Positions 58,401-62,856 of a DNA stretch of 64,000 bases are shown piece after piece (positions within the stretch are counted from its first letter, which is position 1; the number at the start of each line of letters is the position of its first letter). A program made the translations under genes and the position numbers. The DNA lies in NCBI RefSeq assembly GCF_030253575.1, contig NC_080558.1:41065111-41129110 (forward strand), written 5' to 3'. Under the pieces are notes generated by a model, which did not search any database, was not told the DNA's origin, and saw only the letters and a program-made list of their open reading frames with translations. The DNA is from Rhododendron vialii. Lineage: Eukaryota; Streptophyta; Magnoliopsida; Ericales; Ericaceae.

Positions 58401-61400
58401 ATTGTTGTATATTGCACAAAAGTTTACCAAGAATGAATGAAAATGTAAGGCCAGACTTGATTTTCTTCTTACATAATAAGTAATATTCTAAAAGTCACCA
58501 GGCGCTAGTCATACGGACAGCCATCTTCGAAGCCTAGTAATTGGCGATTGATGGGCACATAGCAATTAGTAATTGGCGATTAATCGGCGCATATCAATTA
58601 GTCAGATCTAGTCGGATTATAAATTGGCAGCTGATTAATTCCTATTGTTAGAACGCTGATAATCTATATCTATATTATAAAACAGAGCGGTTTTTTGTCT
58701 ACCCATATAAATATGAGAACCCCTCTAACCGTTAGATCGTAATTTCAATAGGTTACGACCGTTGGATTAAATCATTGATTCTAACCTATTTCGGTTTTTT
58801 GTCTACCCATACAAATATGAGAACCCCTCTAACCGTTGGATCGCAATTTCCATAGGTTACGACCGTTGGATTAATAAAACAGAGTGGTTTTTTGTCTACC
58901 CATACAAATATGAGAACCCCTCTAACCGTTGGATCACAATTTCAATAGGTTACGACCGTTGGATTAAATAATTGATTCTAACCTATTTCCCATGAATGTC
59001 TACCCAGTTTTCCTCTTCTCCATCGTGTTTCCTCTCTTCTCTCCCCTCTTCCTCCATAGTTATACTCTCTCCCTCACTCCATCCCCTCTCCGCCCCCCCC
59101 CCCTTCTCTCCGCAGAACCCACTCCTCAGAGCTCCAGAAAAGAAAAGAAAAAACAGTGCCCACGAAGCTCCTCCACCAATCAGTCGTCCCGCACACCTAC
59201 CAATCAGCCGTCCATGAAATCAATTCCTTAGGGTCTTCTTGTGGAAAAATTAATGTGGCCTAAATTGCTGTTTAGAATGGAAATTTTTTTGATAAGAGTC
59301 TTATCGAGAAAAAAAATTGTTGTTTAGGATGAGAATTTTTTTGCTATTTAGACTAGGAAATGGATTTTGTCTTTAAAAGATGCTCACTTTGTGTTTGTTA
59401 AAATGTATGTTTGACAGAGTGAAAATAGTGGAGAGTGAATTAATTCTTTATGCCCACTTTTGTGTAGCTCTCTTAATTTTTGGATAGACTATGTGGTCTG
59501 ACACTGCGAGAACATGCGACATGACGGAAATAACACGTGGAGAATGTCTGGGGAATTTTTTTGCTGTTTAGAAAAAACAATTGATTTTGTTGTTTAGGAT
59601 GGAAATTTTTTTGATCTATAACTTTTGTTATTTGTCTCTGAAAAATGCGCACTTTGTATTTGTTAAAATATATGTTTGACAGAGTGAAAATAGCGGGGAG
59701 TGAATTAATAAATTCTTTATACCCACTTTTGTGTAGCTCTCTTAATTTTTGGATAGACTTTGTAGTCCGACACTGCGAGGACACGCAACAAAACGGAAAT
59801 ATGTGGAGACATGTCTGAACACGCCACATGATGTATCATTACCAAGGTAAATGCTAGAGACATGGCAAAGTGAATTCAACACTTTTTAAAAGCTTTAGGA
59901 TAACATATGCATCTTAAAAAGTATTCTAATTGAGAGTTTATTTGCTGTGGATTTTGTTCGTCTTTCGTTTTAATGGTATTATTCGATCAAATCACTACAG
60001 GACCAGCACATCCCTTTCCCTAGGTAACAATGTGATCAAATCATTACAGCACCAGCACATCCCTTTCCCTCGCTCTCTCCCCTATCGCCAAGCGTATGAC
60101 TGAAATGTATTGCGCCGTGCCTTCAGACACGGGCATGCACTAGTCTATATTATAAAACAGAGCGGTTTTTTGTCTACCCATATAAATATGAGAACCCCTC
60201 TAACCGTTAGATCGTAATTTCAATAGGTTACGACCGTTGGATTAAATCATTGATTCTAACCTATTTTGGTTTTTTGTCTACCCATACAAATATGAGAACC
60301 CCTTTAATCGTTGGATCGCAATTTCCATAGGTTACGACCGTTGGATTAATAAAACAGAGTGGTTTTTTGTCTACCCATACAAATATGAGAACCCCTCTAA
60401 CCGTTGGATCGCAATTTCAATAGGTTACGACCGTTGGATTAAATCATTGATTCTAACCTATTTCCCATGAATGTCTACCCAGTTTTCCTCTTCTCCATCG
60501 TGTTTCGTCTCTTCTCTCCCCTCTTCCTCCATAGTTATACTCTCTGCCCCCCCCCCCCCCTCTCTCCGCAGAACCCACTCCTCAGAGCTCCAGAAAAGAA
60601 AAGAAAAAACAGTGCCCACGAAGCTCCTCCACCAATCAGTCGTCCCGCACACCTACCAATCAGCCGTCCATGAAATCAATTCCTTAGGGTCTTCTTGTGG
60701 AAAAATTAATGTGGCATAAATTGCTGTTTAGAATGGAAATTTTTTTGATAAGAGTCTTATCGAGAAAAAAAATTGTTGTTTAGGATGAGAATTTTTTTGC
60801 TATTTAGACTAGGAAATGGATTTTGTCTTTAAAAGATGCTCACTTTGTGTTTGTTAAAATGTATGTTTGACAGAGTGAAAATAGTGGAGAGTGAATTAAT
60901 TCTTTATGCCCACTTTTGTGTAGCTCTCTTAATTTTTGGATAGACATTGTGGTCTGACACTGCGAGGACATGCGACATGACGGAAATAACACGTGGAGAT
61001 ATGTCTGGGGAATTTTTTTGCTGTTTAGAAAAAACAATTGATTTTGTTGTTTAGGATGGAAATTTTTTTGATCTATAACTTTTGTTATTTGTCTCTAAAA
61101 AATGCGCACTTCGTATTTGTTAAAATATATGTTTGACAGAGTGAAAATAGCGGGGAGTGAATTAATATATTCTTTATACCCACTTTTGTGTAGCTCTCTT
61201 AATTTTTGGATAGACTTTGTAGTCCGACACTGCGAGGACACGCAACAAAATGGAAATATGTGGAGACATGTCTGAACACGCCACATGATGTATCATTACC
61301 AAGGTAAATGCTAGAGACATGGCAAAGTGAATTCAACACTTTTTAAAAGCTTTACCAAGATAACATATGTATCTTAAAAAGTATTCTAATTGAGAGTTTA

Positions 61401-62856: not shown

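Follow-up and report, generated by a model that had tools for sequence, protein, structure and literature searches.

A head-to-tail pair of sister Helitrons in Rhododendron vialii, and apparently directional stacking of Helitrons on resident 5' ends

Helitrons joined head to tail are cited as footprints of rolling-circle replication. Two Helitrons that abut in the genome of Rhododendron vialii raise the question of how far such a junction, taken by itself, reveals the way in which a pair arose. The pair lies about 6.5 Mb from an end of its contig, in a window of 64,000 nucleotides (the whole stretch of DNA analyzed, C2:41065111-41129110), and the genome searched comprises 532.6 Mb in 13 contigs. 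Outside the Helitrons, the window contains three two-copy tandem duplications, of 78 bp at 100% identity (54135-54292), 106 bp at 93% (45164-45373) and 80 bp at 92% (44445-44603), and positions 32850-32923 match a tRNA gene (68.4 bits).

Read from the window sequence, the whole array is A/TC...CTAG/TC...CTAG/T, where slashes mark the joints (Table 1). The original prediction was that the elements follow each other head to tail with no base between them, that the outer junctions obey the A/T insertion rule, and that the copies are near-identical, internal repeats included. A base-by-base alignment and the bases at the junctions bore this out on all three points, both sets of repeats being present in both copies. 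The global alignment contains 1,429 identities and 27 mismatches (18 transitions and 9 transversions) among 1,456 aligned bases, together with 23 gap columns; one run of 19 columns is a CT-rich tract absent from copy 2, and a further gap takes 3 columns. The 5' end of copy 1 can also be read at 58663, and either reading gives A/TC; the TCTATA in front of copy 1 is ambiguous between an alternative 5' end, slippage and the trace of a resident 5' end. Judged on the assembled sequence, the array in the window is real.

Table 1. Features of the two adjoining Helitrons (window positions).
Feature	Position	Strand	Remark
Copy 1, apparently non-autonomous Helitron, TC...CTAG	58669..60143	+	1,475 bp; family ends at dispersed copies
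Copy 2, apparently non-autonomous Helitron, TC...CTAG	60144..61603	+	1,460 bp; sister of copy 1
Inner junction CTAG/TC, zero bases between copies	60140..60145	+	
A of the A/T target, 5' side	58668..58668	+	Base before copy 1
T of the A/T target, 3' side	61604..61604	+	Base after copy 2
Copy 1, three-unit 5' repeat of ~93-104 bp	58688..58989	+	
Copy 2, three-unit 5' repeat of ~93-104 bp	60164..60463	+	
Copy 1, internal ~235-bp repeat pair, 83%	59317..59817 (59317-59550, 59587-59817)	+	
Copy 2, internal ~235-bp repeat pair, 83%	60773..61274 (60773-61007, 61044-61274)	+	
Copy 1, terminal hairpin	60115..60132	+	7-bp stem, one mismatch (A at 60127)
Copy 2, terminal hairpin	61575..61592	+	Fully paired 7-bp stem, 11 bases from the 3' end
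TCTATA, terminal hexamer repeated, directly 5' of copy 1	58663..58668	+	Ambiguous

To which class of element do the copies belong? A genome search, whose query was copy 1 extended by 9 bases on its 5' side and 57 on its 3' side, gave 57 matches, scoring having covered 40 of 536 first-look candidates. Elements with these ends do occur at other loci: of the 19 relatives fetched, 6 (L009-L014) read A/TC...CTAG/T at both ends. L015-L020 have in common a stretch of 30 bases or more upstream of the matched 5' end, and this group may be a subfamily whose 5' end has been extended or replaced and lies further out; the ends of the remaining 7 of the 19 are altered, cut or interrupted. Both copies and L009-L014 carry the 5' TC and 3' CTRR ends of canonical Helitrons (Helitron1), the 3' hairpin stands within the usual distance of ~10-15 bases from the 3' end, and L009-L014, like the two outer boundaries of the window array, fit insertion into A/T with no duplication of the target. 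Non-autonomous Helitrons have no Rep/helicase gene of their own and depend on an autonomous partner for movement; the longest listed open reading frame overlapping the pair has 128 aa, and for this reason the pair looks non-autonomous. The copies are classed in a canonical, apparently non-autonomous Helitron family with dispersed members. The family's 5' end varies stepwise, since the relatives L009, L010 and L011-L014 match one or two of the subterminal units of ~93-104 bp; the nearest relatives match two or one, versus three in both window copies. L021 and L022 have common upstream sequence, yet the TCTATA repeat differs between them. L022 (C8:622000-625800) also has two 5'-end-like stretches ~300 bp apart before one body, possibly a doubled 5' terminus.

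Is the junction informative in itself? Rolling-circle read-through past the first terminator had been proposed as its source. Read-through would indeed leave such a junction, but the geometry is not diagnostic, because insertion at the A/T formed by a host A and a resident TC gives an identical structure. A 28-base pattern across the copy 1/copy 2 junction, with at most 3 mismatches allowed, was found at 31 places in the genome and its reversed control at 0; TC directly follows CTAG in 27 of the 31 (rows judged by eye). Left and right sides were then compared at all 31 junctions, over about 1.5 kb on each side. Only the window junction yielded a long left-right match (96.6% over 1,479 columns); after it, the longest best matches covered 141, 99 and 82 columns at 72-76%. 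At 16 junctions with no recognized partner end or family, the right side was extended to about 4.5 kb; a long left-right match was absent from all 16 (longest, 63 columns), and at three of them (L033, L046 and L053) a right-hand 3' end was found behind a different body. With loose end patterns, 9 of 30 loci showed a left start, which followed an A in 8 of them, 10 showed a right end, and 5 showed both. By recognized end or family, 17 junctions are unlike pairs; the other 13 have no copy match within ~4.5 kb, a range that dimers of longer elements would escape. At 30 of the 31 junctions, as far as they were compared, neither element is a copy of the other, and the window pair is the sole sister pair found among the 31. 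Among 870 mismatched left-right pairs from the first 30 junctions, 4 share homology of at least 500 bp (72-91% identity, none reaching 95%) and 1 of at least 1,000 bp.

The window family itself takes part in such unlike junctions, as left partner at C4:39990045 and C1:2813549, each time with another right partner. Three of 21 family 3' ends (copies 1 and 2 plus 19 relatives) run straight into a Helitron 5' end, in a search whose query carried 57 bases of such a 5' end and may have been slightly biased toward these cases. Amplification of composite elements was considered as the origin of many junctions and rejected, as no left-right combination recurs near-identically among the junctions compared. 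As a separate observation, two Helitron 3' ends each occur twice exactly before different resident 5' ends: the left elements are 98.5% alike at L033/L040 and 97.75% alike at L048/L059 (400 bp each), and the right elements are 84-86% alike over only 98-134 bp. The geometry of the window pair is not special in the Rhododendron vialii genome.

The relationship between the two copies bears more directly on their origin. Their distance is 0.019 (about 2%), and those from the window copies to six near and six far relatives are 0.035-0.058 and 0.099-0.114, respectively; a 14-row tree joins copies 1 and 2 as sisters with support of 100/99. Within the set compared, no copy is closer to either of them than the other one, a statement that covers the 40 scored candidates, so that a closer relative may exist elsewhere. 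Some dispersed pairs are almost as close (0.022 for both L015/L020 and L016/L020). The family alignment contains 28 substitution differences between the copies, 12 private to copy 1 and 8 private to copy 2, with 4 that vary also among near relatives and 4 that are not polarizable. These private differences fit a common birth, and also two separately inserted copies of one master; because they fit both histories, it is the sister relation together with adjacency that carries weight. On these grounds, the single-lineage origin implied by the original prediction is supported. Plant substitution rates of 7e-9 to 1.5e-8 per site and year would place the split between the copies at ~0.65-1.4 million years.

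Copy 1 was expected to carry a mutated base in its terminator hairpin and copy 2 a perfect hairpin, and this is the case: position 60127 is A in copy 1, and G in copy 2 and in 12 of 12 aligned relatives. Folding gave -6.7 kcal/mol (z -1.21) for the copy 1 hairpin and -10.5 kcal/mol (z -2.65) for that of copy 2. The further suggestion that a weakened terminator had permitted read-through is not supported. Units made by read-through share one template, which would put the hairpin change in both; it is private to copy 1, and we therefore reject a weak terminator as the cause. Most simply, the change would be a later event. Nor is a weak terminator required, since in about 11.7% of Helraiser events flanking DNA was captured even past an intact 3' end (PMC4778049).

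In our view, Helitron transposition probably produced the pair as a dimer from a single element lineage. By one route, a two-unit product would have been inserted into A/T in a single step, having been generated by rolling-circle replication that ran once past CTAG or by a circle copied more than once. By the other, a fresh daughter copy would have landed on the A/TC 5' terminus of its own donor or of a sister. Either route would yield A/TC...CTAG/TC...CTAG/T, with copies identical at birth that acquired private mutations afterward; the sequence of events, like the enzymatic steps, is our inference. The one-step dimer and the self-adjacent insertion appear to us nearly equal in weight, with a slight lean toward the former, and sequence alone cannot separate them. 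The units are near-identical and run 3' end to 5' end, as in a rolling-circle tandem, and their sister relation is consistent with all units having arrived in one event. The tree support would speak against different donors, and two copies of one master still fit. Besides capturing flanks past an intact 3' end, Helraiser forms circles (PMC4778049 and PMC5876387), and a tandem dimer of a single lineage is an already known kind of Helitron product.

The same array could have been built by two insertions unrelated in time, copy 1 coming from another donor of the same family and hitting a resident copy 2 at its A/TC. In favor of such a history, CTAG/TC junctions joining unlike elements are common in this genome, members of the window family abut the 5' ends of other Helitrons at the two loci named above, and the route has been proposed for maize by Du et al. 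2008 (PMC2267711), where a canonical insertion into the A/T formed by a host A and a resident T is one of two orders offered. Moreover, a resident 5' end of the form (TCTATA)2 could have left its cut front as the TCTATA that precedes copy 1, although slippage alone can make this repeat, as L021 versus L022 indicates. Two unrelated insertions would nevertheless require that the resident was by chance the nearest relative of the newcomer. With no fewer than 182 exact-type 5' ends in the genome, another family member is unlikely to have hit its nearest relative by chance, and we regard two unrelated insertions as improbable.

Still less probable, in our view, is a single insertion duplicated later by unequal exchange or replication slippage. 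That the copies adjoin, in the same direction and near-identical, is what such a duplication would produce, but its breakpoints would have to fall precisely at TC and CTAG, and by inspection the outer flanks have no shared homology there. We attach a similarly slight probability to an assembly artefact, in which a single copy was counted twice or two haplotypes were placed in tandem. The 27 substitutions and the gaps of 19 and 3 columns that separate the copies seem to argue against simple assembly duplication, and the break lies exactly at the element ends with no flank duplicated.

If a dimer of one lineage accounts for the window pair, what accounts for the junctions between unlike elements? 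The exact-type 5' end, TCTATATTATAAAACAGAG, occurs at least 182 times in the genome, and a Helitron 3' end stands exactly in front of at least 8 of 182, the window included (L030, L031, L032, L035, L037, L038, L042 and L046, matched by reading). Chance would give 0.02 to 0.2 joins among 182, assuming 10,000 to 100,000 Helitrons and applying the window frequency of A/T sites (8.67% of positions) to the whole genome; joins at resident 5' ends thus look far above chance. Approached from the other side, among the first 100 of 197 3' ends listed, 4 run exactly into a Helitron 5' end and 3 are followed by what appears, by eye, to be a 5' end broken a few bases in from its terminus. The joins are also one-sided. 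A head-to-head pattern, likewise of 28 bases and with up to 3 mismatches allowed, matched 6 rows, read as 4 places, 1 of them with GA/TC. The resulting 31 head-to-tail versus 4 head-to-head places reject equal odds (p about 3e-6), as do 27 versus 1 when only TC-bearing joins are counted (p about 2e-7), on the assumptions, the first of them uncalibrated, that both patterns capture comparable fractions of ends and that short palindromes do not undergo preferential loss. The fetched loci, many of which had been picked for head-to-tail junctions, comprise 25 head-to-tail joins, 0 head-to-head joins and 15 other 5' ends. If an attraction to AT-rich ends were all, head-to-head joins would be expected equally often, because A/T is palindromic.

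Base composition at the target nevertheless deserves consideration. In 91 distinct host flanks, the T side of the target has few G (nearly absent) at +7 to +9 and frequent A at +10, and recurrent targets include (AT)n and (GT)n runs; this T-side preference is real but weak. Scored for it against the A/T sites of the window, the Helitron 5' end stands at the 84th percentile, and a variant form of this end at the 91st. With scores of just the 84th to 91st percentile, composition explains little of the excess at exact termini, and we reject base preference as the whole cause of these joins. A site 4 bases inside the Helitron 5' end reaches the 99th percentile, and composition could help to explain joins just inside the 5' end.

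As a tentative reading, to which we give slightly less than an even chance, resident Helitron 5' termini would be directional integration targets of the transposase, and head-to-tail stacking across families would follow. The transposase would cut a resident at A/TC as if mobilizing it, and the incoming CTAG 3' end would be joined to the resident TC, in the same joint as that of a Helitron circle; the window dimer would then be an element that landed on its own donor. A preference of Helitrons for sites near other Helitrons has been described (Yang and Bennetzen 2009, as cited in PMC12477314; also PMC3288121), and abutting Helitrons are reported from bats (PMC4778049) and Metarhizium (PMC5148889). 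Neither an orientation bias nor directional targeting was found in the literature searched, the coverage of which leaves out key papers; the apparently directional stacking on resident 5' ends may be a newer observation than the dimer.

Because the head-to-tail footprint mostly links non-copies in Rhododendron vialii, junction geometry needs the backing of a sister-copy test. The excess of joins and their one-sided orientation suggest a testable rule of target choice, and the same joins suggest a simple route to composite, multi-ended Helitrons. It is this apparent stacking that we consider the part worth pursuing.

Several known systems resemble the window pair in part. The Helitrons of maize r1 (Du et al. 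2008, PMC2267711) likewise have a CTAG/TC inner junction, but with G/T instead of A/T, and the two elements are unlike, whereas the window pair are sisters. Tandem Helitrons in plant centromeric arrays, tied to rolling-circle amplification in the title of the report (Xiong, Dooner and Du 2016), are cited as multiple tandem insertions of truncated copies, in contrast to the two full-length units in the window. In Metarhizium acridum, three Helitron copies stand in tandem, but they are FoHeli-type (Helitron2-like); the stepwise 5' end of the window family is similar to the Fusarium Helitrons with multiple 5' termini (both PMC5148889). Perfect head-to-tail junctions in Myotis lucifugus, in a bat family, are cited as having been taken for tandem products (Pritham and Feschotte 2007). 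Helraiser differs from the window pair in being autonomous, bat-derived and experimental. Like the pair, it has TC and CTAG ends and a 3' hairpin that acts as terminator; its circles carry a precise end-to-end junction, and abutting Helitrons are noted in Myotis (PMC4778049, PMC5876387).
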